From Alviniconcha marisindica (taxonomy: Eukaryota; Mollusca; Gastropoda; Provannidae): DNA of 64,000 nt. Under the pieces are notes generated by a model. That model did not search any database and was not told where the DNA came from. It saw nothing but the letters and a program-made list of their open reading frames with translations. The DNA lies in NCBI GenBank assembly GCA_018857735.1, contig JABMCL010002470.1:1026001-1090000 (forward strand). The letters are read 5' to 3'. Numbering within the stretch: position 1 is the stretch's first letter; every line of letters begins with the position of its first letter. Position numbers and translations under genes: made by a program. Positions 4,867 to 63,208 of this stretch are shown in pieces.

Positions 4867-5315
4867 TCAAATGTCTTCTTCCACCGACACCTCTCTGCCA
4901 TGTTTGTCACGGATGTGCGGATACAGACTGGTTTTGTAGGCAAAGCGACTGGGGCAATACGGACATTTGTGTGACTTGATGTTGTTGTGTACGTTATAGA
5001 TATGATCCTCATGGCGGTTTTTATCAAAATAACCTTTCCCGCAGAAAGGGCAAACGTATGTGGCTTTCTTCAAGTGAATTCTGTTCTTGTGTTTCCACAG
5101 GCCGCTGTCAGATGAGAACCTCGCATCGCAGTAGTCGCACATATAACTCTTCTCCTTCTGACCTACGTCCTGATAAAAGATGGTTTTGTGTGCAGAAGCA
5201 GCTGCAAGAGCTGACACAACCTGCTGCTTGCTCCCTGATCCTGACGGCTCAATGCTGTCGGGGGAAGCAGGGTGGACCTGGCTCTCAGATGCTCTTGGAT
5301 CAGGCTGGTGAGACC
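4867..5315 (-). CDS. T33: last three-finger terminal exon seen, C2H2 finger 3
   Basis: The acceptor tgtgtttccag|GG gives Gly (GSHQPDPRASE). The fingers are F1 CDYCDARFSSDSGLWKHKNRIH, F2 CPFCGKGYFDKNRHEDHIYNVH (an extra residue gives H-X4-H) with linker NNIKSHK, and F3 CPYCPSRFAYKTSLYPHIRDKH (C2H2). The tail is GREVSVEEDI. It lies about 55 kb from the last shared donor. No further exon is found in the remaining 4.9 kb, so the bank may end here. Confidence 0.88.
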
Positions 5316-5615
5316 CTGGAAACACAGGTAGCATACTGGTCAGCTTATGTTAAAACTGGGGGGGGAAAGGAGCACATAGTCATGTATGGCAACTGTCCAA
5401 AAAACAACAGCTTCCTAGTACATCTGTGCAAACAGACAACTGACACTGAAAGCCTGGGCACGACAAACACACGACACATTCCTGCTTACAAAACATACGC
5501 ACAGAAACTGCATGTACCCAACTCTGCTTCGCTACAAAGTCGGTGAAAGTTTCATACCTTGTGGGAAATTTTAAAGGCAACAGCCTGAGAATTTGAGTCC
5601 ATCCTGCCACTGGGC
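5316..5615 (-). other. Spacer between T32 and T33
   Basis: Three hundred bases with no recognisable feature. Confidence 0.5.
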
Positions 5616-6052
5616 TCAACTTTGTTTTAAAGCAGACTTCATCCCATGCTTGCAGCGGATATGGGTGTACCAGTTCCCCTTATTGATGAACTGGCTGGGG
5701 CAGTAGGGACATCTGTGAGCGTGGGCGCGTTTATGCACGTTCGCATGATCAATATAATGAGTTCGATCCAAGAAACCTTTCCCACAAACTGCACAAACAT
5801 GAGTTTTCTTTTTCTTCAGGTGAATGATGTTTCTGTGCTTCCACAGTCCACTGTTGGTTGCAAAGCCTGCATCACAATAATCACACCGGAAACATTTCCT
5901 CATCTCAACATCTTTCTTTCTGTGGCGGGCTGTGGTAGTTCCAGACTCATGATCAAACTGCTGCACTTTCACTGTTCTGGATGGCTGGAGATGGACTGCT
6001 GAAGCAGGGTGGACGTGAGTGCTGAGAGTTCCAACATACTCCAACAGTGATC
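5616..6052 (-). CDS. T32: three-finger terminal exon with C2H2 finger 3
   Basis: The acceptor tgtacttccag|GA gives Gly (GSLLEYVGTL). The fingers are F1 CDYCDAGFATNSGLWKHRNIIH, F2 CAVCGKGFLDRTHYIDHANVH with linker KRAHAHR, and F3 CPYCPSQFINKGNWYTHIRCKH (C2H2). The Lys-rich LKKKKTH between F1 and F2 is unusually basic. It is sister to T33: both share CDYCDA, GLWKH, CPYCPS and a C2H2 F3. Confidence 0.88.
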
Positions 6053-7289
6053 CTGGAAGTACATGCAGGACAGAGTCAGACGCAAAATTGCCATGGTATG
6101 AAACAGTTTCAATGCCTCCAAAACATCCTTTTGAAATGAATGTAATCTTAATATGATGATGCTCAGTTTAAACATTGGCTAAAAGCATTTAAATCCGTCA
6201 CTGCCAGCTTAAAGCTATGCCAGTTACACATCCAACACTGATGTCTGCAAGGGCAGGCCAAAACTGGTCAAACTTCTGCTACAACCAGATGGAGTCTATC
6301 CAGTCTGTTCTTGAAAGCCCAAAGGAATGGAACAGGTTTTCACACTCAAACCATTTTCACTTCAGTCACTCATCTGAAGGCTCTCGTGCCAGTAAATGCG
6401 TATCCAGGTCACGGAGAAAGCGTGTGTCTGTCCATATCAACAGACAGCTACTTGTCTCCAGGAAAAAGTGGAGGCAATCAACAGTGTCAAGTACTTGATA
6501 TTTGTTCATGTCCACAATAATACTGTTCAACCTGGGGACAGGAAACTGTGTAGACTATCACCTTTGTCCGCAACAATACAGATGATCTTGTCAACAACAG
6601 AAGGGACCACATGCCAAGTATGCCCACAATAACACAACATCAAAAAGATGCAGGCTGTTAAATGCTTCCACAACAATGCTGACCAACCTCTCACCAGGAA
6701 AAGCATGACCCCGTAAGTAACCACACATACACTTAAGAGTATTTTTTACATGGTGAACAGGTCCCACAAGACAGAAGTCAAATCCACCTAGAATCAAACT
6801 CCCAGAAAAAAATATGAGAACCGTTGCTCATAGACCAATTAAGTGTGACTGCACTAAATAAAGATGATCCAGTCAGATGCTTCCTGGTCCAGGTCCTGTG
6901 AATCCAGAAGCTGCGACAAACTTCATATACTCATATAGACATGTCCTCTTGCTCTCTGCGTCTACACTTACTGGTGGTAATGCTGCAACATTGTTACTAT
7001 GGAAATCTCACAACTTGATCAATCAGACTCCAGGTGCCTTCAAATAGCCTTATATACAGTGTAGTGACACTTAAGGCTGGACCTTTCTCATTTCCCATTT
7101 TATACTAATCAAATCTCCTAGCATGCATGTATTAAATAAAGCGACTTCCATGTATACTGACAGCCAACATTCCGTATCTTTAAGCAGCTTTTGCGTGTCA
7201 AAATGCTCCTGAACGGCCAGTTCAAATGTGGTACGTTCCTGAACAGTCAGTTCATAATATGCTTGTCATCAAGAGTCTCATCAGTCAAA
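6053..7289 (-). other. Spacer between T31 and T32
   Basis: There are 1.2 kb without a supported exon. A weak period of about 60 bases (ccacaataataca phrases) at 6.5-6.7 kb may be an old repeat. Confidence 0.45.
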
Positions 7290-7729
7290 CTATCTTTTGT
7301 CTGAAGCAGCGGGATTGCTGTGTCTCCGAATGTGATGATAGAGGCTGGTTTTGTAGGTGAAGACGCTGGGACAAAGAGGGCACTTGTGAGCTTTGATGTT
7401 GTTGTGCATGTTCATGTGGTCTTCAAAGGGCTCCCTCACGTTGAACCCTTTCCCACAAACATTGCAGTAGTGCCTAATCTTATTCAGGTGCACGCTGTCT
7501 ACGTGTCGACTCAGGCCACTGGTGGAAGAAAATGAAGCCTGACAGAATTCACACAGCAGAGGCTTGGTCGGGTTGGCACAATTGGGACCCGCATGGGGCA
7601 AGCTGGGACTACGGGTGGAAATGTTCCATCCTCCTGACGCACGCAGCGACGGCTGAAGAGAGGGTGGTAAGGAAGGCTGTGAACCAACAGCTGAAGTGTC
7701 ACGTGCTTTGGGGTAGTTTGGAGCCAAGT
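7290..7729 (-). CDS. T31: three-finger terminal exon with C2H2 finger 3, Asp junction
   Basis: The acceptor tccctttacag|AC gives Asp (DLAPNYPKAR) and lacks the ttccag core. The fingers are F1 CEFCQASFSSTSGLSRHVDSVH, F2 CNVCGKGFNVREPFEDHMNMH and F3 CPLCPSVFTYKTSLYHHIRRH with the short H-X3-H spacing. The tail is SNPAASDKR. The leader is Pro/Ser-rich (SLPPSLQPSLRAS). Confidence 0.88.
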
Positions 7730-8166: not shown

Positions 8167-8247
<81 letters not shown>

Positions 8248-10667: not shown

Positions 10668-11074
10668 TCAGAACGACATGTTCCTGTATTTGTTACAAAC
10701 ACCACTCCTCATGTGGTGTCGGAGGTTGTTCTTAAAAGTAAACTGCTGAGCACAGTGCGGACACGTGTGAGCTTTGATGTTCCTGTGTCTGTTCATGTGA
10801 TCCTCAAAGTCATCTTTGCGAGTAATCCCTTTCCCACAGATGGTGCAGATGTGCTGACTCTTCTTCACCAAGTGGGCACGGCTTTTATGTTGATTCAGCT
10901 CCCTGACTGAGGTGAACGCCAACGGGCAAAATGGACAACACTGAAGGTTCATCCCATTGATGTCTGCGCGATCAGCCGCTCCCTGCCCAAGAGATGATGA
11001 CTGTCGCAGAGTGCGCGATTCAGAAGTAGAGCGGGCCTGTCTGAGGGGCACTTCTGGATATCTCCATTGTGATC
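10668..11074 (-). CDS. T30: three-finger terminal exon; 3' end amplified
   Basis: The acceptor tgtgattccag|GA gives Gly (GSQWRYPEVP). The fingers are F1 CPFCPLAFTSVRELNQHKSRAH, F2 CTICGKGITRKDDFEDHMNRH with linker RNIKAHT, and F3 CPHCAQQFTFKNNLRHHMRSGVC (C2HC). The tail NKYRNMSF and the following bases recur as diverged copies across the next 1.9 kb. The F1-F2 linker LVKKSQH is one residue longer than usual. Confidence 0.88.
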
Positions 11075-11562: not shown

Positions 11563-12005
11563 TTAAGAAGATGGTGTCTTCAAACCGTCACAAGTGCCAT
11601 CGCGCACATGTTTCCTGAAATTTGTGCGATGCGAAAACTGAAGAGAGCACTTGGGACACTTGTGAGGTTTCACATTCTCATGGCCGTTCATGTGGTCCTT
11701 CAGGCTCTCGCTGCGCGTGAATGTTTTTCCACACAGCTTGCACTCATGGGGTGCCCTCTTGAAGTGAACGCTTTGTCTGTGTCGCCAGAGAGCGCTGGCA
11801 GCAGAAAACGAAGTGTTGCAGATTGAACACAGCCATGCTCTGTACCGAACGCCTTCCACCTGAGCTGAAGCAGTGCCCTGCCAATGGGCAGCCCCGCGTC
11901 TGTGAGATGGCCAGTGATACGTTGATGCTGATCCTGAGAGTCGGGTGCTGCCACCTGAGGTTCGGCGGTCTAGGACTGAAGCTCCAGGGTATCTCCACAA
12001 TGGTT
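11563..12005 (-). CDS. T29: three-finger terminal exon with Glu junction
   Basis: The acceptor tgtatttccag|AA gives Glu (EPLWRYPGAS), the only Glu junction in the bank. The fingers are F1 CSICNTSFSAASALWRHRQSVH, F2 CKLCGKTFTRSESLKDHMNGH and F3 CPKCSLQFSHRTNFRKHVRDGTC (C2HC). The F2-F3 linker is ENVKPHK and the F2 start FKRAPHECK, nearer to ordinary C2H2 linkers than in other exons. The tail is DGLKTPSS. Confidence 0.88.
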
Positions 12006-13386: not shown

Positions 13387-13793
13387 CTAATGCTGAGTGC
13401 GTACATGATGCCTCAGCTTGTTCTTGAAGGTGAATCCTTGCCCACACTGTGGACACCTGTGGGCCTTGATGTTGTTGTGCATGTTCATGTGGTCCTCAAA
13501 GTTCTCCTTTCGGGTGATGCCTTTCCCACAGATGCCACACACGTGAAGGTTCCTGTTCAAATGCACGCTGTTCCTGTGTCGATACATGGAGCTCTCAAAA
13601 GTGAAGGAAGCATCACAGAAATCGCACACAAACAGAGACTTGGCCTGACTGCCATCTTTCTGAGCAGATGAAGCAACAGGGGCTGTTGACATCTCGTGTA
13701 ACAGAGATGGCTGTGGAGTGCTGGAAGGTTGGGTCATGTAGTCATCTGAAGCTATAAGACTGTCGACGATTCCTGTGTGATCCAATACCGATC
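13387..13793 (-). CDS. T28: three-finger terminal exon with C2H2 finger 3; 3' end amplified
   Basis: The acceptor atatgtttccag|GA gives Gly (GSVLDHTGIV). The fingers are F1 CDFCDASFTFESSMYRHRNSVH, F2 CGICGKGITRKENFEDHMNMH and F3 CPQCGQGFTFKNKLRHHVRTQH (C2H2). The protein stops right at the last zinc His. The DNA coding for KLRHHVRTQH-stop continues as diverged tandem copies downstream. F2 (GKGITRK) and F3 (FKNKLRHH) are closest to T30, which suggests a T28/T30 sister pair. Confidence 0.88.
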
Positions 13794-14120: not shown

Positions 14121-14539
14121 TCAGACTGAAGCTCCACTGTGTTTGTCGCGGGTGTGGCGCCAGAGACTGGCCTTGTAGGTGAACTGGCAGGCACAGTCCG
14201 CGCACTTGAATGCCTTGACGTTGTTGTGGGTGTTCATGTGCCCCTCATAGTGCCGCTTGAAGTTAAACCCCTTGCCACAAATCTCACAGGTGTATGGTGT
14301 ATAGTTCAGGTGCACTTTGTTAATGTGTCCTCGCAGTCCATTGGAGGATGAAAATGAGGCATCACAGTATTCACACAGAAGGGATTTGGGATGGTAGGCA
14401 TCCCTCGGGCCTGGGTGGAATGGAGGGTTGCTGGAAAATCCAGTGCGCGATTGAGATGAGAGCTGAAGTGTCGACGGGTGAGATGAATGTGGGGGTGTGG
14501 CTTTACTGTCCAGCATTTCTAGACTGCTCCATGGTAATC
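14121..14539 (-). CDS. T27: three-finger terminal exon with C2H2 finger 3
   Basis: The acceptor tgtgtttccag|GA gives Gly (GLPWSSLEML). The fingers are F1 CEYCDASFSSSNGLRGHINKVH, F2 CEICGKGFNFKRHYEGHMNTH with linker NNVKAFK, and F3 CADCACQFTYKASLWRHTRDKH (C2H2, and CAD instead of the usual CPN). The tail is SGASV. The GC content is higher than in the surrounding introns, as in the other coding exons. Confidence 0.88.
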
Positions 14540-16958: not shown

Positions 16959-17416
16959 TCAAGAGGTGGTGGCCGTCCTCTCTTTGCAACAGACCCCCTT
17001 TCTGAGGTGCCGCCTCAGTCCACTCTTGAAGGCAAAGCCACAGGAGCAACGTGGACACCTGTGAACCCTCACATTGTTGTGCATGTTCAGGTGATCCTCA
17101 TAGTGGTCCTTCACTGTAAACCCTTTGTCACAGACATCACACCTGTACAGGAACTTGTTCAGGTGGAAGTGGTTGATGTGCTTGTTCAGCCCTTGGCGGG
17201 TGGTCAGAATAGCATTGCAATATTGGCAGAGCAGTGCAGTCTTTGGGGGAACAAGCTCTTCCTGGCCAGAAAAGGAGCCTGCTGCGAGAGAAAGGGTAGC
17301 ACCGTGTCTCTGCAATGAGGACTGTGAAGTCCCAGGTTCGGATGGCCGGAGAGTTTGAGGTGAACCCTGGTGACCACGAGTGTTCAGTGCAGCTCCATAG
17401 CGGCGCCGTAATAGTC
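16959..17416 (-). CDS. T26: three-finger terminal exon whose 3' end seeds a minisatellite
   Basis: The acceptor tgtgttctag|GA gives Gly (GLLRRRYGAAL). The fingers are F1 CQYCNAILTTRQGLNKHINHFH (the usual aromatic after the Cys pair is replaced, AIL), F2 CDVCDKGFTVKDHYEDHLNMH with linker NNVRVHR, and F3 CPRCSCGFAFKSGLRRHLRKGVC (C2HC). The tail is CKERTATTS. The DNA from CGFAF to just past the stop is the ancestor of a tandem array that begins immediately downstream. Confidence 0.87.
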
Positions 17417-17963: not shown

Positions 17964-18400
17964 TCATTTGTTACATACACCTAGACGAATATGCCGCCTA
18001 AGGCATGTTTTAAATGTAAACCGGCTGGAACAATTGGGACACCGGTGGGCCTTGATGTTGTTGTGCATGTTCATATGATCTTCAAAATGCTCCTTGGACA
18101 TGAACCCCTTCTCACAGATGCCGCACACATGAGCTGCTTTGTTCAGGTGGACTCTGTCTCTGTGCCCTTTCAGGCCTTGTAGAGTTGTAAATGAAGCATC
18201 GCAGAATTCACACAACAGAATCTGGGGCTGACTGACATCTGCCAGACCAGGACCGGCACTGAAGACAGAGCAGGTCTTGCTAAGTCCATGAGTTGACTGA
18301 CTGAGACTCGTTGATGCTGATGCTTCTTTGTGTACTGCTGCGTGGGTGGCCTGAAGTTGAACGACCAATGAATCTGGGTGGCTCCATGGTAGCTCGGAGT
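17964..18400 (-). CDS. T25: three-finger terminal exon with Asp junction
   Basis: The acceptor atatattttcag|AC gives Asp (DSELPWSHPDS). This differs from its near-twin T24, which has a ttccag|GG acceptor, so the acceptor changed after duplication or was exchanged. The fingers are F1 CEFCDASFTTLQGLKGHRDRVH, F2 CGICEKGFMSKEHFEDHMNMH and F3 CPNCSSRFTFKTCLRRHIRLGVC (C2HC). The protein ends NK. Confidence 0.88.
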
Positions 18401-19266: not shown

Positions 19267-19652
19267 TCATTTGTTGCATACACCTTGGCGAATATGCCGT
19301 CTAAGGCATGTTTTAAATGTAAACCAGCTGGAACAATTAGGACACTGGTGGGTCTTGACCTTGTTGTGCATGTTCACATGATCATCAAAATGCTCCTTGG
19401 ACATGAACCCTCTTCCACAGATGCCGCACACATGAGCCGGTTTATTCAAATGTGTTTTATCTCTGTGCCGTTTGAGTCCCTGTGGAGTGGCAAATGAAGC
19501 GTTGCAGAATTCACACAACAGTATCTGGAGCTGGCCAAACGTGTGACCAGAGCTGGCACTGGAAACAAGGCTGGTGTCAAGTCCCAGAGCTGACTGACCA
19601 AGATTGGTGGATACTGTCGCTGGTTTGCTCTCTGGGTGGCCCCATGGTAACC
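19267..19652 (-). CDS. T24: three-finger terminal exon, recent duplicate of T25
   Basis: The acceptor tgtgtttccag|GG gives Gly (GLPWGHPESK). The fingers are F1 CEFCNASFATPQGLKRHRDKTH, F2 CGICGRGFMSKEHFDDHVNMH with linker NKVKTHQ, and F3 CPNCSSWFTFKTCLRRHIRQGVC (C2HC). Finger 2, finger 3 and the sequence around the stop are highly similar to T25 at the DNA level. The leader is about 15 residues shorter than in T25 and the first residues (GLPWGHP) also resemble T27. Confidence 0.88.
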
Positions 19653-22137: not shown

Positions 22138-22574
22138 TTACATGTGCCGATGACGAATGTGCCGACGCAAGCTCGTCTTGTAAGTAAACTCATGAGAACA
22201 ATGAGGACACTTGTGCGCCTTAAAATTGTTGTGTCGATTCATGTGTCCTTCAAAGTGATCCTTCTCTGTGAATCCCTGTCCACATACAGAGCAAAAGTAA
22301 GGAAGCTTGTTCAAATGCACCAATTTCTTGTGTCTTTCCAAACCACTAGATGAGGCAAATGAGGAGTTGCAGTACTCGCACAGCAAAATCTTCGATGGAA
22401 GGGAACTCTTGTGAGCAGAGGCTGATTTGACACCAGCAGCAGTTCCAGACCCAGTTCGGACAGAGTGATAGGGGTGAGGAGTCGTTACTGAAAGTGATAG
22501 GGATGGGTGGATACTGCTTGAAGACAGGGGGCCGTCTCCACAATCTGATGCCAATCTGTGGTTCCAAGGCCGTC
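22138..22574 (-). CDS. T23: three-finger terminal exon with C2H2 finger 3
   Basis: The acceptor tgtgtttccag|GA gives Gly (GRPWNHRLAS). The fingers are F1 CEYCNSSFASSSGLERHKKLVH, F2 CSVCGQGFTEKDHFEGHMNRH with linker NNFKAHK, and F3 CPHCSHEFTYKTSLRRHIRHRH, a classical C2H2 ending. The protein stops one residue after the last zinc His. An AATAAA lies only about 18 bases past the stop, followed by a poly-G tract (plus strand) near 22027-22053. Confidence 0.88.
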
Positions 22575-23623: not shown

Positions 23624-24303
23624 TCAAGGGGTTTCGACATGTTCATCTTGTGAATCTTTTCGCTTATTTTCACATGACCCATTGCGAAGGTGAAGACTAA
23701 CACCAGTTTTGTAGGCAAACTTCTTGGGGCAGTTTGGGCATTTAAAGGCTTTGATGTTGAAGTGCATGTTCATATGCCCCTCATAGTGCTCTTTAAACAT
23801 GAACTTCTTTTGGCAGATGTGGCATTCAAATTTCCATTTATTCAAATGAACTTGTTTCTTGTGATTCTTGAGTCCACTCGTAGATGTGAAAGTTGTGTCA
23901 CAAGCATCGCACAAGTACAGCTTTCTGGGGCGAACTTCCACCTCATCAGAAGCCGTCATGGATGGTGAAATCGTCCGATTCCTTGGTCCTTGGGCCAACA
24001 TGGAGCTTATGCCACAGTGGTGTGATGTTTCTGATGATGTGATTCTGAATGCAGCTTGAGCTAGGGTTGAGCTGCATGCAGCGAGTCCCATGTCAGCTGA
24101 CAGTGAGAGCAGTGGATATTGAGGTGAAGCTTCTATTTTTGATGACTGTGAATATCGTGGCGAAAGTTGAACAGTGGATGACATCGATGTCCCAGGATAT
24201 TGTGGTGAAGCTTGAATGCTGGATGACACAGAAATCCCTGGATATTGTGAGGAAGCTTGAATGTTGGACGACACTGATGGCCGTGGATAATCTGACAGTG
24301 ACC
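23624..24303 (-). CDS. T22: three-finger terminal exon with a 15-residue repeat leader
   Basis: The acceptor gtgtaattccag|GG gives Gly (GSLSDYPRPS). The leader is the longest of the three-finger exons and contains four to five imperfect tandem repeats of 15 residues (YPGISVSSSIQASPQ type, 45 bp each). The fingers are F1 CDACDTTFTSTSGLKNHKKQVH, F2 CHICQKKFMFKEHYEGHMNMH with linker FNIKAFK, and F3 CPNCPKKFAYKTGVSLHLRNGSC (C2HC). A 17-residue acidic tail follows (ENKRKDSQDEHVETP). Confidence 0.88.
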
Positions 24304-27075: not shown

Positions 27076-27593
27076 TCAGTCTCCTCCACCATCCTCTTGG
27101 TTACCCAGGGCAGTGGGAAAAGATTGCAAGGCTTTGAGTTTGTTGCAGTGTCCTTCACGAAGATGCTGACGAAGGCTAGATTTGTAAGTGTAAGAGTTGG
27201 AACAGAACGGGCACGTGTGAGCCTTGATGTTGTTGTGCATATTAAGATGATCATGAAACAGCTCTCTGACAGTGAAACCTTTCCCACAGACAGGGCAGGT
27301 GTGGGGGTGCTTTTTCAGGTGAACCCGATTTGTGTGTCCTATCAGACCAGTCCTTGAGGTGAACACGGCACCACACATTTTACAGCAAAGGGTACTTGAA
27401 GGAGATTTGGCTTTAGAAGGCAAGAGTGCAGAAGCTTTACTGTGAGCTTGATAATGCATAGTATTCAAACCAAGCAGGACCGAGGTGGAGGAGTCGGAAT
27501 GCCCAGGAGGAAAGTGTTTTGGGTCAAGACTTTTCATCACCATGGCCTCAGGAGCTGCAGTATCTGACAACCCTGGGTACATCCATTCCGACC
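27076..27593 (-). CDS. T21: three-finger terminal exon
   Basis: The acceptor gtatttccag|GG gives Gly (GSEWMYPGLSD). The fingers are F1 CKMCGAVFTSRTGLIGHTNRVH, F2 CPVCGKGFTVRELFHDHLNMH and F3 CPFCSNSYTYKSSLRQHLREGHC. The F3 end has both H at X4 and C at X5, so it could close as C2H2 or C2HC. The tail of 23 residues (NKLKALQSFPTALGNQEDGGGD) is acidic at its end. Confidence 0.88.
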
Positions 27594-27769
27594 CTGGAAA
27601 TACATTGGATTTTTGTGTAAATATTATCTCAGTCACATATCCACAATCAATTGCACACAGAACAGTTATATTTCCTACTTGAAGAAACAAATCCCTCTAT
27701 ATAAAGTGAACACAACTCCACTAATGGCCAAAGTGGGATGGTATTACAACAAAAGTTACATTCAAATCT

Positions 27770-28220
27770 TTCTACATATTGCACATGGACATGTTTTTGG
27801 AGGCTGGTCTTACGGGCCTAAGAGACGCAACAGAGGGGACACCTGTGAGCTTTTATGTTGCTGTGCATATTCATGTTGTCACTGCAAATCTCTGGTACAG
27901 CACACCTTTCCCACAGATGCTGCATACGTGTGGTTCTTTCTTTGAAAGGACAGCACTGCCACCAATGTGCTGTTGGAGACTACCTCCCATGATAAAGATG
28001 GCTTCACAAAATTCATACGGCAAAATCCTGGACGAGGCTTTTCTGAATAAAAGACATGGAATGCCCATGGCTGGTTTCACCGAGTTGCAGTTGGGGCAGT
28101 AAGCTGATAGCCCAGTGGAGCGTCAGTGGTGCCTTCACTTTTCAATGCAGGCACTTGCAAACTGTGCAAGCTAAAAAATTAGGATTTTTGGTGAGAATCT
28201 TGGCAAGTTCCGTCTTGACC
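27770..28220 (-). pseudogene. Pseudo-exon 6 (decayed three-finger terminal exon)
   Basis: The acceptor gtgtttccag|GG is intact, but the phase-1 frame stops at TAG after 16 residues (GSRRNLPRFS...). Finger 1 survives as ILPYEFCEAIF with the first zinc Cys changed to Tyr, and finger 2 starts well (HVCSICGKG) before a frameshift. In another frame MNMHSNIKAHRCPLCCVS*ARKTSLQKH is the linker and finger 3 with one internal stop. The decay appears relatively recent, since splice site and motifs are still clear. Confidence 0.8.
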
Positions 28221-28750: not shown

Positions 28751-29241
28751 TCACAGCACATACTTGTTTTTTGTACACACTCCATCCCGCACATGCTGCC
28801 AGAGATTCCTTTTGTACGTAAATGTGCTGGAACAATTGGAACATTTGTGTGCCTTGACATTGTTGTGCATGTTCATATGGTCCTCATAGTATTCTCTTCT
28901 GTCAAAACCTTTCCCACATATTGGGCAGACACGGGAATGCCTTTGTGCCGAAAGAGCATGATCAGTGTGCGCCACAAGTCCACTCTTAAAAGCTTCAGCA
29001 GGGGTAATACAGGAAACCCCTGTCCAGATGTTCCGAACACGATTTCTGTCACGTATGTCAGTATCACTCATTTGATGCTTGATTGAGCTCATATCCTCAG
29101 GCACAGATGCAGAAGACTTAGGTTGTTGAAGGGAATCTCTTGACCAAGATGACATTCTTGACAGCCTTGAAGGTGTTGGCTGACTGATGCTCGTTTGATC
29201 AAGCGAGGCTTTAGACAATCCAGGAGGAGTCCAGACAGACC
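28751..29241 (-). CDS. T20: terminal exon with eroded finger 1
   Basis: The acceptor atatttccag|GG gives Gly (GSVWTPPGLSK). Finger 1 is damaged: the region reads VSCITPAEAFKSGLVAHTDHA, with the second Cys replaced and the final His displaced. F2 CPICGKGFDRREYYEDHMNMH and F3 CSNCSSTFTYKRNLWQHVRDGVC (C2HC) are intact and the frame is open throughout. The linker between the F1 remnant and F2 is unusual (ALSAQRHSRV). A minus-strand ATTAAA lies about 85 bases past the stop. Confidence 0.78.
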
Positions 29242-29458: not shown

Positions 29459-29874
29459 CTAACTGGAGTTTCTCTGTTTCTTGCAGACACCAGAACGAAC
29501 ATGGCGTCTGAGATTGGTTTTGTATGTAAAGTAAGCAGAGCACTGTGCACACTGGTGCGGCTTGATGTTGTTGTGCATGTTCATGTGGTCGCTGAAGTGC
29601 TCATTCTGACAAAATCCCTTTCCACACAGGGTGCATACAAACTGATGCCTGTTCAAATGAACGCTGTTTGTGTGTCCTATAAGTTCCGAGTTGGAGGCAA
29701 ACGTTGCAGAACAGAATTCACACTGCAAAATCTTTGAAGCAGTCATGTGACCTGCAGGTTCATGGTCAGTGAAAGCTGATATCTGTGACATTGAGCCCCA
29801 CAGCGGAGTGGTGTGAGCTGCTTCACTGGCTGCTGGTTTTGACAGTCCTCCATAGCTCCTGTAACTCTCTGACC
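29459..29874 (-). CDS. T19: three-finger terminal exon
   Basis: The acceptor tgtgtttccag|GG gives Gly (GSESYRSYGG). The fingers are F1 CEFCSATFASNSELIGHTNSVH, F2 CTLCGKGFCQNEHFSDHMNMH with linker NNIKPHQ, and F3 CAQCSAYFTYKTNLRRHVRSGVC (C2HC). The leader is short (about 60 residues) and the tail is KKQRNSS. Confidence 0.88.
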
Positions 29875-31542: not shown

Positions 31543-32036
31543 TCAGGATGTGGCATGTCTGTGCATCCATTTGTCACAGGTACCACTGCGGATATGTGTA
31601 TTGAGATTAGTCAGCTGAGTGAATGACCTCAGACACTTGGGGCAGGTGTGTGCCTTGATGTTGTTGTGAGCATTAACATGGTCACTGAAGCGGTATTTCC
31701 TTGTGAATCCCTTGCCACAGATGGGGCAGGTGTAACTGTACTTCTTCTTTAAATGAACTACATTGAGGTGCTCTTTGTGCCGTATCCCCGATGTGAATGT
31801 AGCATCGCAAAATTCACAAAGAAATATCTTGGGAGTTCTCTTCCTAATGTTTGCAGATGCTCCTGATGTCCTTCCCTCCAGGTGAATTTTCCTGTCATCT
31901 GAAAGCATTCCTGGAGGGGCCAAGCATTCTGGATAGTAATCCTTGGAACGCTCTTGCAAATCAACTAGCACTTCATGGCTGGCTGTAGTTTGGTTGGCAT
32001 GATGTTCCGACAATCCTGTGCAGTTCCACTGTGACC
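31543..32036 (-). CDS. T18: three-finger terminal exon
   Basis: The acceptor gtgttcccag|GG gives Gly (GSQWNCTGLSE). The fingers are F1 CEFCDATFTSGIRHKEHLNVVH, F2 CPICGKGFTRKYRFSDHVNAH and F3 CPKCLRSFTQLTNLNTHIRSGTC (C2HC). The leader LVDLQERSKDYYPE matches those of T15 and T16 in spacing, so T18 may preserve the finger 1 that those exons lost. An AATAAA lies about 217 bases past the stop. Confidence 0.88.
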
Positions 32037-36669: not shown

Positions 36670-37157
36670 TTATTTGTTGCAAGTATTGTCATGAAGATGT
36701 TTCCGCAGGTTAGCCTTGAAGGTGAACAGCCTGGAGCACTTCGGACACTGGTGTACCTTGATGTTGTTATGCATGTTCATGTGGTCAGTATAGCGTTCTT
36801 TGGTTGTGAACCCTTTCTTAATCCTACAGATTCCACAAGTGTATGGGTAGTTCTTTAGGTGGACGCTGTTGGTGTGCACCTTGAGTCCACGGGCTGAGGC
36901 AAATGTGGAGTTGCAGAGTGTACACACCACAGTCTTGGACTTGTCAAGCAAAGGCAAACTGGGGGTCAGAAAATTCTTATTCTGGTGGGGATGCCTTGTT
37001 GTTGAAAATGCAGGAACAGATGAGAAGGAAGCTGTGTCTCCGTAGAAGCTAGCTACAGACTGAGGAGTGTTCATGGATGCTGATGACCAGCGCATGTTGC
37101 TCACTGAGGTGTGGACAGCAGCAGCTTCTGACAGTGTTGGGTCGGTCCAAGACGTTC
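36670..37157 (-). CDS. T13: three-finger terminal exon with an expanded finger 2
   Basis: The acceptor ttgtatttccag|GA gives Gly (GTSWTDPTLSE). F1 is CTLCNSTFASARGLKVHTNSVH. F2 reads CGICRIKKGFTTKERYTDHMNMH, with 14 rather than 12 residues between the second Cys and the first His, because of a two-residue insertion in the beta-hairpin. F3 is CPKCSRLFTFKANLRKHLHDNTC (C2HC). The protein ends NK after finger 3. A minus-strand AATAAA lies about 160 bases past the stop. Confidence 0.87.
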
Positions 37158-37470: not shown

Positions 37471-37925
37471 TCATATGCTATAGGCCCCACTGTCATGCCA
37501 TTTTTTGTGGTTCATGTACCGCTGTTTCAAGAGAAATCCTTTCCCACAAACCTCACATGCATACGGATATTTATTCAAGTGAACACTGTTCGTGTGTCTC
37601 CTGAGGCCACTGGAAGAAGCAAATGTTGCGTCACAAAATTCACACAACAGAATCCGAGGGGATGTTATCTGAGCAGCAGATGCAGGAGAATCCAAAGCGC
37701 TGGCTGTTGCCGTCTCATTAATGCTTTCATGCTGATTCAAAGGTTCACCATCTTCAGTAACTGAAGTGGTGTCCATTTGATCACAATAAAACTTTTCTTT
37801 TATGTGGCCACCTTCCACAGAAGAAGTCAATGGAGTCTGTGAGTACAATGGCCACACACTGGGACTGAATGCAGAAGCCTCATCCTTTGAACTTTCCGAC
37901 AATCTGGGATATCTCCTCGATGACC
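37471..37925 (-). CDS. T12: terminal exon with two fingers (finger 3 absent)
   Basis: The acceptor tgtgtttccag|GG gives Gly (GSSRRYPRLSE). F1 CEFCDATFASSSGLRRHTNSVH and F2 CEVCGKGFLLKQRYMNHKKWH are complete. The frame then ends DSGAYSI-stop where intact exons continue NIKAHKCP. Downstream sequence shows no readable finger 3. The F1-F2 part is well conserved, so either this is a functional two-finger form or the exon is at an early stage of decay. Confidence 0.75.
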
Positions 37926-38828: not shown

Positions 38829-39340
38829 TCAAGCCAATGGTGATTTCTCCAGGGCCGAGGACAGTTTGTACTTATTACAGACACCAAACCGAAGATGTCT
38901 CCGTAGATGTGTTTTAAAGGTAAATGATCTGGAACAGTTGGGGCACTGGTGAGCTTTGATGTTGTTGTGCATGTTCGTATGATCGATGCAGTGCTCCTTG
39001 ACAGCAAACCCTTTGCTGCACACGTCGCAGAAAAATCGGTACATTTTCAAGTGAACACTGTTGATGTGAGATTTCAGTGCGCTGGCTTTCCCGAAAGCTG
39101 AAGGACACATTTCACACACAAAAACCCTCGACTGAGCTTCTGAAGCTGGGCCTGCAGCAGCATCACCACCTCTAGTCTTTTTCAGCCCATGGTTTGCAGA
39201 CTTTTTTGTGGAACTGGTCACATGTCTACTGAGGGTGCGTTTCCAGTGAGGAATATTCACAAATGCTGGCGGACCAATGTTTCCAACTGATGCCTGGGAG
39301 GCTGAGAATGCAGAGAATCCCCGACTGGTCCATGGCAAGT
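38829..39340 (-). CDS. T11: three-finger terminal exon with Asp junction
   Basis: The acceptor tacacttttccag|AC gives Asp (DLPWTSRGF). The fingers are F1 CEMCPSAFGKASALKSHINSVH, F2 CDVCSKGFAVKEHCIDHTNMH and F3 CPNCSRSFTFKTHLRRHLRFGVC (C2HC). The segment before finger 1 is about 95 residues with a Lys-rich patch (TKKSANHGLKKTR), so it is one of the longer leaders. The tail is NKYKLSSALEKSPLA. Confidence 0.88.
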
Positions 39341-39655: not shown

Positions 39656-40092
39656 TTATTTTTTACTGCATATTCTGTCTCGTAGGTGTTTCCGGAGGCT
39701 GGTTTTAAATGTAAACAGTCGGCAACAGTTTGGGCATTTGTGTGCTTTGACTTTGTTATGCATGCTCATATGATCGTTGTAGTGCTCTTTCAGGGTAAAC
39801 TTTTTGTCACAAATAGCACAGGCATACGGGTGTTTCTTCAGATGAGTAAAGTTTGTGTGCGATTTCAGCCCCGAAGGTGAAGTAAATGTTGCATCACAAA
39901 GTTCGCACAGAAAAATTCTAGACAATGACAGGTGGCTTGAGGGTGGGTTGGCAGTAGAGGTCCTTGGATGAAGTAGCATTGCCTCTCTTTCAGCAGGCCA
40001 AGCTGAGGGGTCACGCTTTGGTTCCCCAGGGACTCCAGGGAATGAAGTACTATTTCCTGGCCATCTGGGACTGGGGAAGCCAAACACAGGGC
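39656..40092 (-). CDS. T10: three-finger terminal exon
   Basis: The acceptor tgtgtttccag|GC gives Gly (GPVFGFPSP). The fingers are F1 CELCDATFTSPSGLKSHTNFTH, F2 CAICDKKFTLKEHYNDHMSMH with linker NKVKAHK, and F3 CPNCCRLFTFKTSLRKHLRDRIC (C2HC). The protein ends SKK directly after finger 3. The segment before finger 1 is about 70 residues and Pro/Ser-rich. Confidence 0.88.
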
Positions 40093-42523: not shown

Positions 42524-43029
42524 TTATTGTGAAGTGACACTGGTCCCAGCACAACTATTTTCCCGACAGTGTCTTCTGAAGCTTGTCCTGTAGGCAAATG
42601 CTTTTGGGCAGTTGGGGCACTTGTAGGCTGGAACATTGTTGTGAGTGTTCATGTGGTCTCTGAAATACTCTTTGATGGCAAACCCTTTCCCACAGATAAG
42701 ACACCTGTGCAATGCCTTCTTCAGGTGAACAGCCAGCATATGACGTTTGCGACTACTCTCTGCAGAAAAGGAAGCGCTGCATAAGTCACATAGCAGAATC
42801 TTGGAGCTGGTTGAAAGAACTCGACCAAATGGGACACTGCCATCCTTTCCCACTGTTGGTTTTTCAGAATAAGATTCAGTCTTGACTACTGGTTTCATGG
42901 ACTTGTTTACATTCTCAAGGCTCTGGGTGGTATGACAGTTAGGGCGCAGAAAGCTTGAAGTGGATGATGGTATGTTGTGCAAAGTCCATGCTTGCCCATC
43001 CTGTCTAGGTGTTCCACTCCACTCCACAA
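42524..43029 (-). CDS. T9: three-finger terminal exon with Val junction
   Basis: The acceptor is tgtgtttgcag|TT, not the usual ttccag|G; it completes a Val codon (VVEWSGTPR) and keeps phase 1. The fingers are F1 CDLCSASFSAESSRKRHMLAVH, F2 CLICGKGFAIKEYFRDHMNTH with linker NNVPAYK, and F3 CPNCPKAFAYRTSFRRHCRENSC (C2HC). The open frame extends far upstream of the acceptor by chance. About 80 residues separate the junction from finger 1. The tail is AGTSVTSQ. Confidence 0.85.
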
Positions 43030-44564: not shown

Positions 44565-45007
44565 TTATCTTTTTTTCTTACAGCCACCCAGCCGAATGTG
44601 ATCTCTCAGATTTGTCTTGTAATACCATCCCTTTAAACAGTTTGGGCATTTGTACGCACGGATGTTGTTGTGCATGTTCATGTGACCTTCATAAGCTTCT
44701 TTATAGTTGTATCCTTTTCCACAAAGATTGCACACATGTGGCAGTCTCTTCAAGGAGTGGACACGGTTCTTGTGTTTGATCAGTCCACTGACAGAGATGA
44801 AAGATTTATCACACAATCCACACAGGAGAACTGATGATGGCACTCCTTTATCAGCTGGGATGTTAGTTTCTGTGCTGGAGCCAAAACCCTTCGTTTTTTC
44901 ATCATGGGGTACAGCAGGTTGTTGAAGACTGACTGCTACAGATGTGCTATGATCTTGACTGAACTGAGCTGGATTGTCCATCACATATGAGTAGGTCCAG
45001 TATGATC
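44565..45007 (-). CDS. T8: three-finger terminal exon
   Basis: The acceptor ttccacttccag|GA gives Gly (GSYWTYSYV). The fingers are F1 CGLCDKSFISVSGLIKHKNRVH, F2 CNLCGKGYNYKEAYEGHMNMH and F3 CPNCLKGWYYKTNLRDHIRLGGC, the last a C2HC finger. The F1-F2 linker SLKRLPH is one residue longer than in most exons. The protein ends KKKR just after finger 3. A minus-strand AATAAA lies about 180 bases past the stop. Confidence 0.88.
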
Positions 45008-45251: not shown

Positions 45252-45652
45252 TCAATTCGCGTCTTTAGGCTTTTTGTTGCAGGAACGATTCACATGCAGT
45301 CTGAGACTCGTTTTATAGGCATACTCTTTGGGGCAGTATGGACACTTGTAAGCTTTAACATTGTTGTGCACATTGACGTGTCCTTCATAGTGTTCTTTGA
45401 AGGTGAATCTTTTTCCACATAAAGCACAAACATACGGCAGCCTTGACACAGGGCCATCTCCTCTAGGATGATGAAACTCGGAATTCTCATTTGAAAATAT
45501 GTTGGTGCTGTGGGTTGTCCAGCGACCATTCTCACTCTCAGGGAGCTGAGAAATGGCCGACTGTGTGCAAGGGAAAGCACTTTGGCGAGCTGAGGTTCCT
45601 GGCCTTAGAAAGGCTGGGGTATGAAAGCCTCCAGGATCACACCAGGTCTGTC
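45252..45652 (-). CDS. T7: terminal exon with two fingers (finger 1 absent)
   Basis: The acceptor tctgtttccag|GA gives Gly (GQTWCDPGGF). The first 70 residues, where the family normally has finger 1, hold no Cys-X2-Cys pair. Finger 2 (CALCGKRFTFKEHYEGHVNVH), the linker NNVKAYK and finger 3 (CPYCPKEYAYKTSLRLHVNRSC) are intact. Finger 3 ends H-X4-C, one residue shorter than the common H-X5-C. The tail is NKKPKDAN. The clean acceptor, correct phase and complete F2-F3 argue that the exon is used. Confidence 0.82.
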
Positions 45653-47702: not shown

Positions 47703-48019
47703 TCAACCAGTAACCAAACTTGAGTTCCCATGCTTCTTTTTCTGATGTGTGACCAGATTGTGCTTAGAGTTGTACTGCATACCACATTCCTCACATTTAA
47801 ACATGTTGCCAGTGTGAAGACGCATGTGCCTTTTTAAGCTGTCACTGCGGTCAACACGGTATGCACATATGTTGCACCTGAACACTTTGTTCGATTTTTC
47901 AAAAGGTGGAGTCAATTTGTCTGTAAAGTATGGGCTTTGAAAGGCTTGAGAAAAGGGAACAAGATGGTGGTTTATCTGTGCCTCTGGTTTCACCATCGGC
48001 TGGCCTAGGGCGGGGAATC
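47703..48019 (-). CDS. T6: terminal exon with a C2H2 finger pair
   Basis: The acceptor ttctacttccag|GA gives Gly (GFPALGQPMVK), so this exon has the pair-type fingers of T2-T5 but the Gly acceptor type of T7-T33. The fingers are CNICAYRVDRSDSLKRHMRLH and CEECGMQYNSKHNLVTHQKKKH with a TGNMFK linker. The tail is short (GNSSLVTG). An AATAAA lies on the minus strand about 740 bases downstream (46956-46961). It is the last member of the two-finger cluster. Confidence 0.87.
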
Positions 48020-49135: not shown

Positions 49136-49776
49136 TCAGCCTACAACCTTTTCTAGCTCATGTTCATCACTTGTGGACATGCTAGCCATTTTTTCTTTCT
49201 CTTTCACTTGTAGCAGATTGGCTTTGCCTCCACTAAGGTGATCGATGACTTCTGCTGGTCCCTGACCACCAGTACCATCAGTGTCAACAGGAGCTGAACA
49301 ATGGTGGGTCTGTTTATAATCATATCCCAGAAGAAAGTTCTGCTCAAAGCCATGCTTCAGCAATCTGTGTTGTTGGAGCTTGTACTTGCAGTTGTATTCA
49401 GCCCTGCACATGCTGCACCGAAACTTCTGGCCTGTGTGGCAACGCATGTGTCGATTCAGATTATACATGCGAGAGTTGGCATAACCACAGAGTGGGCATT
49501 TAAATATTCTGCTCACTTTGGCTGGATTCAATTCTGTGTCACCAAGATTACAAAGCATTTGATCATTAGAACTTGCAATGTGGTCAGCTGCAGGCTGCTG
49601 TCCACACTTGGAGTTGCTGTTCATCTTACTACTGAGGGTGGCTGACTGGGATGCACGTTTAATGTGGTGGCTACTTGAAGACCAATGATTCATATTAACG
49701 GGGAAGTTTAAACTGGAAACAGCGCCATCCAACATATTCTCTCTGACAGTAAGGCTGTCTGTGGTCCACAGTGCAT
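49136..49776 (-). CDS. T5: terminal exon with a C2H2 finger pair and long flanks
   Basis: The acceptor ttcactttcag|AT gives Asp (DALWTTDS). It is the longest two-finger exon, with about 100 residues of Ser/Asn-rich sequence before the fingers. The fingers are CPLCGYANSRMYNLNRHMRCH and CSMCRAEYNCKYKLQQHRLLKH with a TGQKFR linker, followed by an acidic, Lys-rich tail of about 60 residues. The long tail and leader set this isoform apart from T2-T4 and may carry additional contacts. Confidence 0.87.
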
Positions 49777-50417: not shown

Positions 50418-50746
50418 TCATTTAGAACCAAACATAGCAGCAAGAGAATCACGGGTGTCATCATAATTCATGAACTCAACACCATGTTTCTGCTCCTTGT
50501 GTTTTTGCATGCCGTATTTACAGACAAACTGTGCCCCACAAACATCACACTGGTGCATTTGACCAGTATGCCGACGCATATGCCGTTTGAAGTTGTCGAG
50601 ACGCGACACTGAATAGCCACACATACTGCAAGTGTATTTCTTCTGGGTCTCGTTTGAAAATGATGGCTGCAGTTCCTCCACTATGTGTGGAGAGCTTAGG
50701 AGCGTACCTAACCGCCTGCCCATTTCACCACTTCCCAAGGCTGAAT
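50418..50746 (-). CDS. T4: terminal exon with a C2H2 finger pair
   Basis: The acceptor tcttttcag|AT gives Asp (DSALGSGE). The fingers are CSMCGYSVSRLDNFKRHMRRH and CDVCGAQFVCKYGMQKHKEQKH with a TGQMHQ linker, followed by a 17-residue tail ending in AAMFGSK. The open frame runs on upstream of the acceptor by chance; the acceptor and the phase rule place the exon start here. It is close to T3 in sequence and position. Confidence 0.87.
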
Positions 50747-50936: not shown

Positions 50937-51220
50937 CTAACAAGCCTTGCTTCCCAGCACGCCATGTTTATTCAGCTTGTGTTTCTGTAGATAGTACCTA
51001 CAATTAAATTCAACATGACAAACTTCACACTGAAACAACTGTCCCGTGTGTCTGCGCATGTGCCTTTTGTAATTGTCCAGGCGAGTAGAAGAATATCTGC
51101 AATGACTACAAAAGAAGGTTTTTACACGATCACAGGTTTCATTTAAAGTATTCTTTCTAGCCCAAGTGGAGCCGGTGGCTGGGAGCAACTGTCCAGTGCC
51201 AGTGTGGGGCCAGACCACAT
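50937..51220 (-). CDS. T3: terminal exon with a C2H2 finger pair
   Basis: The acceptor cctttcag|AT gives Asp (DVVWPHTG). The exon is the shortest of the bank at 284 bp. The fingers are CSHCRYSSTRLDNYKRHMRRH and CEVCHVEFNCRYYLQKHKLNKH with a TGQLFQ linker. The RLDNYKRHMRRHTGQ stretch is nearly identical in T4 (RLDNFKRHMRRHTGQ), so these two neighbours are probably duplicates. The C-terminal tail after the last His is only GVLGSKAC. Confidence 0.87.
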
Positions 51221-51599: not shown

Positions 51600-51895
51600 T
51601 CACTGCCCATTTTCAATGCTCTTGTCACTGCTGGTCCCAATCGTGTGTTTGGTTTCTTTGTGCAAGCGCAACATATACTTGGAATTGTATTTCAACCCAC
51701 ATATGTGACATTCAAACAAGTGCCCTGTATGGCAACGCATGTGTCGCTTGTAGCTGTCCAACCGAGACAGGACCTTGTCACAAATACTACACTTAATTGT
51801 CCTTTTCTGGCCGTTCGCAACTAAAGAGGTGAAATAGTGGAGCTCACGAGCATGAATAGGTAGGTTGTTCATTTGACCGTCGGACTGGAAAGAAT
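51600..51895 (-). CDS. T2: terminal exon with a C2H2 finger pair
   Basis: The acceptor tttctttcag|AT gives an Asp junction (DSFQSDGQ), followed by 97 residues and a stop. Finger 1 is CSICDKVLSRLDSYKRHMRCH and finger 2 is CHICGLKYNSKYMLRLHKETKH (C-X2-C-X12-H-X3/4-H), joined by TGHLFE, a relaxed form of the TGEKP linker. It is the most 5' member of a five-exon cluster (T2-T6) whose finger pairs resemble one another and recall the finger pairs of insect lola-type C-termini. No internal donor is seen. Confidence 0.87.
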
Positions 51896-52512: not shown

Positions 52513-53435
52513 CTAATCCAGCTTCATGGGATCCTGACCATCACTTGGAATACTTGCAGAGCTGACAGCTCTTTCCTCAACTCCAGTATCAAAAGAAACG
52601 GAATCAATCCAAGAAACACTTTCCACAGAAGGAGTGGCCATGCCTGAAACACCCCTGACAGAACCAGACCCTAACCTTGGAATAGTACCAGCAGTCTGGT
52701 GGCCCATCTCTGATAAACCCACAGAACCTGAGCCAACACCCGAAATGTTTCCAACAGAACCAGTACCAATTCCAAGACCACCTCCAGCAGAACCAGTGCA
52801 TGTTCCTAGACTACTTCCAGCAGAATCAGAACCAGTCCTGGAATCAGAGCCAGTCCTAATAGTATTCTGAATGGAACCAGAACCTAACCCAGGTACACTG
52901 TCTGAAAATCCCAAGGAGAACTGCTGAATAATGTTAGATACTGACTCGGCATTGGCCGATCTTGATGCCCTCTTCATTCTTTTCCGCTCTTTGTCCTTTT
53001 CTTTAATCTCAGCCTTTTTCCCTTCAGATAAGGTTTCCCTGTAGAGTTTTTTAGCCACTCTCCTCTTCTCTCTTTCCATTGCTTTCTTATAGCCCTCTGC
53101 AGAAGACAACCCCTTCTGTTCCAAGAGCTGCCTGTAGCCGGCACTCATTAGCTCCAGTCTTTCTTTTGTTTTCACCTCCTCTTCTCTACGCCCTGCCCGC
53201 CTTTTGCGTTTGTCATCTCTGTACAAAGCAAATGCACGTTGCAGTGACAAGTGGCTACTGCTGTAGTTAGATCTTTGACGGTAGAAAGACAGGTTTGAAC
53301 TGGACGCCCTTGGTATGACTCTGTTCTGTCTTGAGGTGCCAGGACCACCACGAATCTGATCAAGAGGAAGTCCAGAGGGTCCCATGGGCCCAAATGCCGA
53401 CAACGAGTTGCCATAACTCTGGGCACCAGACATAC
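52513..53435 (-). CDS. T1: fingerless terminal exon with basic helix-rich segment and Gly-Ser tail
   Basis: This is the first terminal exon downstream of the shared part. The acceptor tctctccag|GT fits phase 1 (junction Gly), and 306 codons then run to a TAG. There is no Cys2His2 finger. After a Gly/Ser/Pro-rich start, residues 65-160 are dense in Lys, Arg and Glu and likely helical (DDKRKRRAGRREEE, KRRVAKKLYRETLSEGKK, EKDKERKRMKR). This resembles basic nucleic-acid-binding or nuclear-localisation segments, but I assign no family. The last 130 residues are imperfect Gly-Ser repeats. The isoform would be the longest (about 650 residues) and either lacks sequence-specific DNA contact or uses a different mode. 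It could be the default isoform because it is nearest to the donor; that is inference. Confidence 0.75.
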
Positions 53436-60109: not shown

Positions 60110-60230
60110 TTACTCAATTTTAATGAAACCTTCATTGTTCATGCTTTGGATGCTGTTTTTACTCCCTTACTCAATTTTAATGAAACCTTCATTGTTCATG
60201 CTTTGGATGCTGCTTTTACTCCCTTTATAA
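60110..60230. repeat. Tandem duplication, unit about 58 bp, two copies
   Basis: The segment starting ctcaattttaatgaaacc and ending before ttttactccctt is present twice in direct succession, with a single base difference near its end. It is probably a recent slippage or unequal-crossover event. Confidence 0.85.
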
Positions 60231-60306
60231 AAAGGGAGATGAGGAAAAAAAGCAATCACAGAGCAGAGTTCCTGCCCAAGGCATCCAGACTGAAAAAAAG
60301 GCCAGG

Positions 60307-60316
60307 ACTCCTACCT
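60307..60316 (-). promoter_or_regulatory. 5' splice donor of the short exon (phase 1)
   Basis: On the minus strand the junction reads ATGAGAG|gtaggagt. It is the last donor found before the bank of terminal exons, so it is the probable common partner for all of them, over distances of roughly 7 to 55 kb. Confidence 0.75.
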
Positions 60317-60491
60317 CTCATGCTGGAGGGACCAGGCTGAGGCTGGGAAGTGGAGGGTCCTAAACTGCCTGGTGGGAAATGCTGACCACCTGCTCCAAGA
60401 TCATGGGCACTTGGTACGTATGTTGCTGAAGCTGACGAACTGGTGTGAAGTGCGACAGGAAAGAGGGAAGGGTCTGGCATACTCTCTGAGC
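60315..60491 (-). CDS. Short symmetric exon (phase 1-1), Pro/Ser/Gln-rich linker
   Basis: This 177-bp exon sits between the acceptor atgtttcag|GC and the donor AGAG|gtaggag. Its 59 codons keep phase 1 at both ends, so inclusion or skipping leaves the downstream frame intact. The peptide (SESMPDPSLFP... QPQPGPSSMR) is low-complexity, without a domain, and would act as a flexible linker between the constant module and the variable C-terminus. Whether it is constitutive or a cassette cannot be decided from sequence. The reading frame continues into the intron for a few codons only. Confidence 0.75.
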
Positions 60492-62307: not shown

Positions 62308-62310
62308 CTC
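62301..62310 (-). promoter_or_regulatory. 5' splice donor of the shared exon (phase 1)
   Basis: On the minus strand the junction reads AGAGAG|gtaaagt. The last coding base is the G of a split Gly/Asp/Val/Glu codon, which matches the phase of every downstream acceptor identified here. Confidence 0.85.
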
Positions 62311-63172
62311 TCTGATGTGGGCCTCCGACAAACTGCTGACCACTAGAGTTTTCATATTCACACGCAGACCTCTCCCCTTCCACATACTCTTCTTTAATAA
62401 ACGTCACTTCAAGATCACCATCACTGTCATCATCCCTGTCAGCAAGGTCAGGATTACTTTGATCGTCCACTGGTTCAAGCACACTTCCAGCAAGATTCAC
62501 ACCAATATCAGCAGAACTGTCACTTGTAACATTTGCAGTCTGTGGAAGCATTGTTTCTGACATATCAGCTTCTGAAGTCCCAAGCTGCTGCAGAGCTGCT
62601 TTGGAATCTACTGGACTAGATGAGGTGGGTGGGAATGGAGACTCGGACGATGAATGTGAAACATTATCATGATGAGATGAGACTTTGGAGGGACGGAATT
62701 CGCTGCTGTGGTCATCAGAGGCTTTTCGTTTTGTAGTGCTTTGTTGGGAATGAGAGGAGTCTGAGTCTTTGGTGCCAGAGCTTCGTCGGGATCTTTCTCG
62801 AGACCCCGACAAAGCTGAACTAATACTGGATATTGCAGAAGACAATCTGCCAGTCTCCCCTGTTTCAGTGGACTGTTTATTTTGCACAACCTGATTCCCT
62901 GACTGCTGTGAGTTCTTCCCTGAAACCTCCTGTTCACACTTTGGCTCTGCATGGAAGCTGTTGCTAATGAATAATGTAGAGTTCTCAGCATTCTTGCACA
63001 CTTTTTCCTTAAGAATGTAGTCCAAAGAGGTCCCTTTGTCAACCATGAGGTTGATGTGTCCAATGATTTCGATGCCACTGCTGAATTCCAAGTAGCCATG
63101 GCACAGAGTCTGTACTGATTTGATTAATGCATTGATGAACTTGGTTGCCGCTTCGTCCCCTACTTTCTCCAT
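62308..63172 (-). CDS. Shared 5' coding exon: constant N-terminus of the multi-isoform zinc-finger gene
   Basis: This exon gives the first 288 residues common to all inferred isoforms. The exon itself begins at 63208, after an acceptor. The 36-base leader contains in-frame TGA codons and the ATG has A at -3 and G at +4, so the start is well supported. Residues 1 to about 75 look like a folded module (IEIIGHI, NLMVDKGTSLDYILKEKVCK) that I do not recognise; it does not resemble a BTB domain. Residues 85-200 are rich in Ser and Gln with a basic TTKRKAS patch (about 146-152) that could be a nuclear signal. Residues 235-275 are acidic and contain IKEE (259-262), which fits the SUMO consensus. The coding sequence runs out through CAG AGA G into a gtaaagt donor, phase 1. 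The reading frame continues a few codons into the intron and stops, as expected for intron sequence. A role as a dimerisation or cofactor module is inference. Confidence 0.88.
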
Positions 63173-63208
63173 GGTTCAGATCGCAGTGGGTCAGCAGTAT
63201 CAGTAGTC

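Follow-up and report, generated by a model that had tools for sequence, protein, structure and literature searches.

One N-terminus probably joined to many alternative ends

A stretch of 64,000 nucleotides (nt) from the gastropod Alviniconcha marisindica (contig JABMCL010002470.1, here C1063, positions 1026001-1090000, within an 818-Mb assembly; below, the window) very probably belongs to one gene, in which any of about 42 alternative 3' ends can be spliced to a shared N-terminus, yielding many presumed transcription factors. The core of this reading is drawn from sequence: the exons themselves and the one phase they obey, the selection acting on their finger frames, and junctions of the same type in proteins of relatives. 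An original prediction had described one shared ATG exon, one symmetric linker exon and 33 exons on the same strand, each with an acceptor, an open frame and a stop; every element of this was confirmed, coordinates included. The shared ATG exon (62308-63208, minus strand, with the ATG at 63172-63170) codes for 288 amino acids (aa), and its splice sites are tttttcttctccag (acceptor) and AGAGAG|gtaaag (phase-1 donor). The linker exon (60315-60491, minus strand; 177 nt, 59 aa, phase 1-1) has tttcag|GCTCAG as acceptor and TGAGAG|gtagga as donor. The 33 terminal coding exons (T01-T33) follow on the minus strand from 53435 to 4867, each preceded by an AG and ending in a stop after an open frame. C2H2 fingers are present in 32 of them, so that the zinc-finger C-termini originally predicted for the whole set hold for all ends except T01, which has no finger. 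T02-T06 (five exons) carry two fingers of one class; in T07-T33 (27 exons) the fingers are of a second class, two or three per exon. The minus strand has 74 strict C2H2 motifs and the plus strand 0, with a mean of 0 in 20 shuffles.

The set had been put at 33 or more and is indeed larger, as the array runs past position 4867. Six further phase-1 finger ends, one of them with five fingers, lie below the window on the same strand (C1063:1025514-1015542). They are followed by an internal exon (C1063:1012277-1012183; GNVSQQQ...KWM) that is entered in phase 1 and left in phase 0, and then by phase-0 acceptors. These precede a multi-finger open reading frame (ORF) at C1063:1001937, assigned to the locus by phase alone, a probable helix-turn-helix end at C1063:999648 and a split BEN-like end starting at C1063:994764, of which two exons were read. 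The same joining is found for helix-turn-helix and BEN-like ends in the Littorina proteins P0003 and P0004, respectively. Matches to HTH_17 stay below the Pfam cut-off of 27 bits (P0003, E 1.2e-4, 22.7 bits; P0025, E 6.5e-6, 26.7 bits). The tail of P0004 is one that we take, by eye, to be BEN-like; a search for BEN in it gave no Pfam match at E up to 10 and a best E of 0.31 among PDB sequences, and the label was confirmed by neither. The locus as predicted thus comprises about 42 alternative ends over ~95 kb, the last three being less certain. In the 30 kb upstream of the window no homologue was found.

The same junction in proteins of other gastropods

The ATG exon aligns over its full length with proteins of Littorina saxatilis (Caenogastropoda; 80% identity, the highest in a named species) and Babylonia (73%), and it matches heterobranch proteins at 31-36%. 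Among the N-terminal matches (the best 120 of 154 and the best 120 of 271), all names are of what we take to be gastropod genera. The proposed mollusc origin is supported and narrowed to Gastropoda. Nearest to the window locus are Littorina saxatilis V1264_013861 and Babylonia areolata LOC143296877 and LOC143293555; Aplysia californica LOC101845285 and Biomphalaria glabrata LOC106079054 also have the same N-terminal family and architecture. Alignment A1 of this family shows invariant columns.

Of the 220 proteins listed, 163 were assigned to 18 loci of 8 species from their names, tags and contigs. Within each locus the isoforms have a common prefix of 294-378 aa, and pairs diverge at most 4 residues past its end; one Babylonia pair departs from this pattern, with 48 further residues in common. 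In 158 of 161 isoforms (17 loci) the prefix is followed directly by G, A, V, D or E, against a background of 23% in the tails, as expected where a phase-1 donor ending in G forces a GNN codon at the junction. The three exceptions are all from one locus of Pomacea, where all four isoforms have one extra D in common. Tails of relatives were compared with the window ends, and 29 of 35 match while 6 do not. In six of the 29 the alignment runs from residue 1 to residue 1, namely for T05 (with Babylonia tail P0008), T07 (P0016), T13 (P0026), T20 (P0013), T27 (P0023, 64% identity) and T33 (P0018; 72% identity with P0028); elsewhere a variable front part is left unaligned. The T01 junction was found in two species (Littorina V1264_013861 and Babylonia LOC143293559 X1), and a query with T01 gave 3 relatives among 7708 candidates. 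Comparison of the 39 terminal exons with an incomplete set of 30 tails from Babylonia and Nucella gives 16 reciprocal best pairs. The joining of a common N-terminus to alternative C-termini is thus strongly supported by proteins of relatives that carry single homologous tails. A direct junction from 62308 to the terminal exons had also been considered and found no support: 35 proteins of relatives match the linker at 42-80% identity, with no systematic search made for isoforms lacking it.

Some of these proteins appear to derive from transcripts. P0072, P0104, P0117, P0132 and P0167 run from the N-terminus through to the fingers on contigs of 1357-1815 nt, which are presumably cDNA because they are too short for introns like those of the window. 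Three entries of Arion vulgaris, which we take to come from a transcriptome, have 326 residues in common and differ afterwards.

The Babylonia counterparts of the window locus lie on two contigs (LOC143296877 versus LOC143293555/558/559), with relatives of T23 and T33 on both. A duplication of the locus followed by partition of the ends is possible.

Phase, selection and history of the array

All 33 acceptors complete the split codon of one phase-1 donor. When the top-scoring acceptor was chosen blind to phase, using a simple score of our own, it fell in this same phase (1) for 31 of the 33 exons; the corresponding p of ~1e-12 assumes equal and independent phases, and duplicated exons are not independent. 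The acceptor chosen by homology is not the top-scoring one in five exons (T17, T22, T23, T25 and T32). Among 21 three-finger exons, the proportion of synonymous differences (pS) in the finger region exceeds that of nonsynonymous differences (pN) in 210 of 210 pairs (mean pS 0.82, mean pN 0.34), which indicates that the finger frames are maintained as protein. By this measure, with synonymous sites near saturation, the finger exons are old and maintained.

Identity declines with distance in the array (Spearman -0.29, Mantel p 0.0005, 32 exons), neighbours being more alike. Together with a decayed finger exon at 27755-27934 (minus strand; stops and broken frames, outside the count of 33), this argues that the array is shaped by tandem birth and death. 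T15 and T16 differ by a pS of 0.25 before the fingers and 0.73 within them, and gene conversion of their front part is possible. Strong diversification of DNA-contact residues is not claimed, the entropy of helix positions being mixed across 21 exons. Positions -1 and 3 of the finger 2 helix vary (3.2 and 2.6 bits), but in the helix of finger 1 variability peaks at +1, which is not a contact position.

A family of loci in the host genome

Ten places in the genome match the N-terminal exon. Besides the window locus, these are a locus on contig C2215 (65% identity) and eight more distantly related places, including one ~150 kb further down the contig of the window. Downstream of the C2215 exon, 12 finger ORFs occur in 40 kb, with the two-finger class first and the three-finger class next, as in the window locus; the top acceptor is in phase 1 for 9 of the 12 and in other phases for 3. 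At the C988 locus one isolated finger motif was seen and no array was found in the 70 kb examined. When the T23 fingers were searched against the whole genome, with 150 of 1343 candidates scored, the best 36 matches all fell behind N-terminal exons of the family, 28 in the window locus, 7 in C2215 and 1 in C2584. The closest kin of the array fingers therefore lie inside the family; below these 36, family members are interleaved with other C2H2 genes. As judged by these searches, the window locus is one gene of a gastropod multi-locus family.

The N-terminal domain and the first introns

The ATG exon contains a conserved N-terminal domain (residues ~4-77); the part after it is less conserved and closes with a conserved VTFIKEE motif (62407-62387). 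In 44 aligned family members all residues of this motif but its I are invariant or nearly so, and it resembles a SUMO-attachment site. Scanned against Pfam at E up to 10, the 288 aa of the exon yielded Roughex at 0.93 as the sole match, nothing convincing, and no BTB domain. Across the host genome there are 74 BTB matches, with zero on the contig of the window. An AlphaFold model of the N-terminus suggests a helix and three strands (residues 3-76), and structure searches with it gave no convincing match to a known fold. By analogy with BTB in lola, the domain would mediate self-association or cofactor binding; that it oligomerises may be the case but is a guess.

Two further stretches were noted in the introns. 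At 62162-62141, in the first intron, 22 nt stand between an AG and a GT; the stretch resembles a micro-exon, would shift the frame and was not counted. Just past the shared donor, at ~60110-60224 on the minus strand, a stretch of ~58 bp occurs twice in tandem, in the intron that is crossed by splicing to every terminal exon.

Choice of the end and alternative explanations

The phase-1 donor at 60315 would join one acceptor of a long pre-mRNA, mainly in cis. A choice in cis is favoured because every end observed has the same orientation as the shared exons. This layout is weak evidence, as mosquito mod(mdg4) is laid out alike and yet is believed to trans-splice (PMC4667647). Many ends would use common downstream polyadenylation (poly(A)) sites, and isoforms lacking a signal of their own should then carry later finger exons as 3' untranslated sequence up to the shared site.

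A candidate for class-specific regulation is found in the acceptors. UGUG or GUGU occurs in the last 14 intron bases of 19 of the 33 acceptors T07-T39 (a count that includes the six exons outside the window) and in 0 of 6 of T01-T06, whereas decoys carry it in 30 of 303 (sense) and 25 of 340 cases (antisense), that is 7-10%. Bases -17 to -20 before the acceptors look random. The element looks like a sequence under constraint, since it is retained while synonymous sites are saturated. A UGUG-binding regulator may act on the acceptors of the main finger class, the element being perhaps a CELF/Bruno-type site. A Dscam-like model of docking and selector sequences is set aside for lack of evidence, as no 9-mer found upstream of 4 or more of the 33 exons has its complement within the first 1.3 kb of the 6.9-kb donor intron.

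Several observations weigh against the proposed single gene with acceptor choice, or against parts of it. For the host species the locus is read from genomic sequence, and most isoforms of the relatives look like automatic gene models. The model of the N-terminus is weak (predicted local distance difference test score, pLDDT, 69) and matches no known fold, so that the role proposed for it is a guess. No complementary docking motif was found in the first 1.3 kb of that intron, and the likeness of the UGUG elements could in part be inherited by duplication. In addition, AATAAA stands near the end of T23 (+17), T15 (+47), T13 (+159), T08 (+181) and T18 (+216), and its total on the sense strand is 25, compared to a shuffle mean of 13.4. 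Finally, the acceptor score declines along the array (Spearman -0.64, p 6e-5). With the top acceptors first in the array, plain first-come splicing would favour T01-T06; the first ends must therefore be restrained, or the ends stem from other transcripts.

The AATAAA motifs would fit ordinary alternative last exons, each with its own poly(A) site, in which the choice of that site sets the isoform. This is considered rather unlikely. The sense total of AATAAA, raised as it is over the shuffles, is exceeded by that of the antisense strand (37), and within 400 nt of the stop the motif occurs at just 5 ends (shuffle mean 3.6). Before the next acceptor it is present in 12 of the 33 intervals (shuffle mean 9.9; the interval of T33 was set at 4 kb) and absent in 21, for which non-canonical signals are conceivable. 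Where intervals are at most 650 nt long, and some measure just 190-330 nt, 12 of 15 hold neither AATAAA nor ATTAAA.

Trans-splicing of the mod(mdg4) kind, in which each terminal exon would have a promoter of its own and its transcript would be joined to another that carries the N-terminus, is judged unlikely. It is documented for mod(mdg4) and lola (PMC12692577, PMC11426971, PMC4667647), and it would accommodate the early position of the highest acceptor scores, which is awkward for a plain choice in cis. Against it stands the finding that the 33 exons of the window and the six that follow are all on the coding strand of the shared exons, again a weak point, because some ends of mod(mdg4) are on the opposite strand in Drosophila and none is in Anopheles gambiae (PMC4667647). 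That the exons are independent C2H2 genes or pseudogenes, clustered in tandem and lying by chance behind an unrelated exon, is scarcely credible: C2H2 genes do occur in tandem clusters and 25 of the 33 exons have some in-frame ATG before the first finger, but 8 have none, a single phase holds throughout, the frames are under purifying selection, and proteins of relatives that fuse the same N-terminus to single tails already contradict it. Splicing of one shared donor to a chosen acceptor of a long pre-mRNA remains the favoured model.

Terminal exons of the window

All terminal exons are on the minus strand and are given in the order in which they follow the shared exons. T01 (52513-53435) is the non-zinc-finger end, of 307 aa with a basic region. 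The two-finger class consists of T02 (51600-51895), T03 (50937-51220), T04 (50418-50746), T05 (49136-49776) and T06 (47703-48019). The three-finger class opens with T07 (45252-45652), which has two fingers, as have T12 (37471-37925), T15 (34335-34732), T16 (33159-33556) and T20 (28751-29241). Three fingers are found in T08 (44565-45007), T09 (42524-43029), T10 (39656-40092), T11 (38829-39340), T13 (36670-37157; finger 2 irregular) and T14 (34953-35443), in T17 (32347-32867; a higher-scoring AG is at 32804), T18 (31543-32036) and T19 (29459-29874), and in T21 (27076-27593). The same holds for T22 (23624-24303; acceptor not the best-scoring AG), T23 (22138-22574; acceptor second by score, the query of the genome search), T24 (19267-19652), T25 (17964-18400; acceptor not the best-scoring AG) and T26 (16959-17416). 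The array within the window is completed by further three-finger exons, T27 (14121-14539), T28 (13387-13793), T29 (11563-12005), T30 (10668-11074), T31 (7290-7729), T32 (5616-6052; acceptor second by score) and T33 (4867-5315), the last of the window and not of the gene.

Comparison with lola and mod(mdg4)

The original prediction likened the locus to lola and mod(mdg4) of Drosophila, and the likeness stands as an analogy and not as homology. Drosophila mod(mdg4) is described as having common 5' exons and more than 30 alternative 3' exons (PMC12692577), and its relatives in insects are credited with up to about 40 isoforms (PMC4667647), a number comparable to the ~42 ends of the snail locus. 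Drosophila lola is described as having 20 isoforms with one N-terminus, of which 17 differ in their C-terminal C2H2 fingers (PMC11426971). What the snail locus has in common with both is one shared set of N-terminal exons and many alternative C-terminal exons, read in the snail from genomic sequence and the isoforms of relatives; with lola it also has in common that the different tails are C2H2 tails. However, mod(mdg4) combines a BTB domain with trans-splicing, and in flies part of its ends are encoded on the opposite strand; in the snail no BTB was found, the ends seen are on one strand and most are C2H2. The N-terminus of lola is a BTB of the TTK group, and lola has fewer ends. We know of no helix-turn-helix, FLYWCH or BED ends of lola. 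In its predicted arrangement the snail locus works like lola and mod(mdg4) but is not a member of either, as no BTB was found.

Other tail types occur at sister loci with the same N-terminal family. A FLYWCH tail, the type known from mod(mdg4) and not seen in the window, is carried by P0094 (Babylonia LOC143293577 X14), and a BED tail by P0116 (Bradybaena BsWGS_01360). As read from these proteins, such tails show convergence on the same tail types. Relative to lola and mod(mdg4), the unrelated N-terminus, the additional tail classes, the multi-locus family and the distinctive splice-site and poly(A) features would be new. No description of such a locus in gastropods was found in the open-licence literature of PubMed Central, most subscription journals being outside its scope, which agrees with the initial statement that none was known in this lineage. 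It is tentatively suggested, as a possibility on the doubtful side, that gastropods independently evolved a multi-locus system in which a new non-BTB N-terminus is spliced to perhaps hundreds of C2H2, FLYWCH, BED, helix-turn-helix and BEN-like tails per genome, chosen by competing acceptors with class-specific UGUG elements and shared 3' ends, and that the choice might encode the identity of cells or neurons in a combinatorial way.

Automatic names track the tail in gastropod annotation: one Aplysia contig carries 'zinc finger protein 526', 'protein glass isoform X4' and 'transcription factor btd isoform X1', and the common gene is thereby hidden. The products of a single gene thus appear under a range of unrelated zinc-finger names, and tallies of C2H2 genes could be distorted as a result. 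Lola and mod(mdg4) have been treated as exceptional insect loci. If the reading given here is true, the principle of deriving many factors from a single gene evolved on more than one occasion and is hence open to comparison, and the role of the shared N-terminus, the need for trans-splicing and the choice of one acceptor in forty would become testable.

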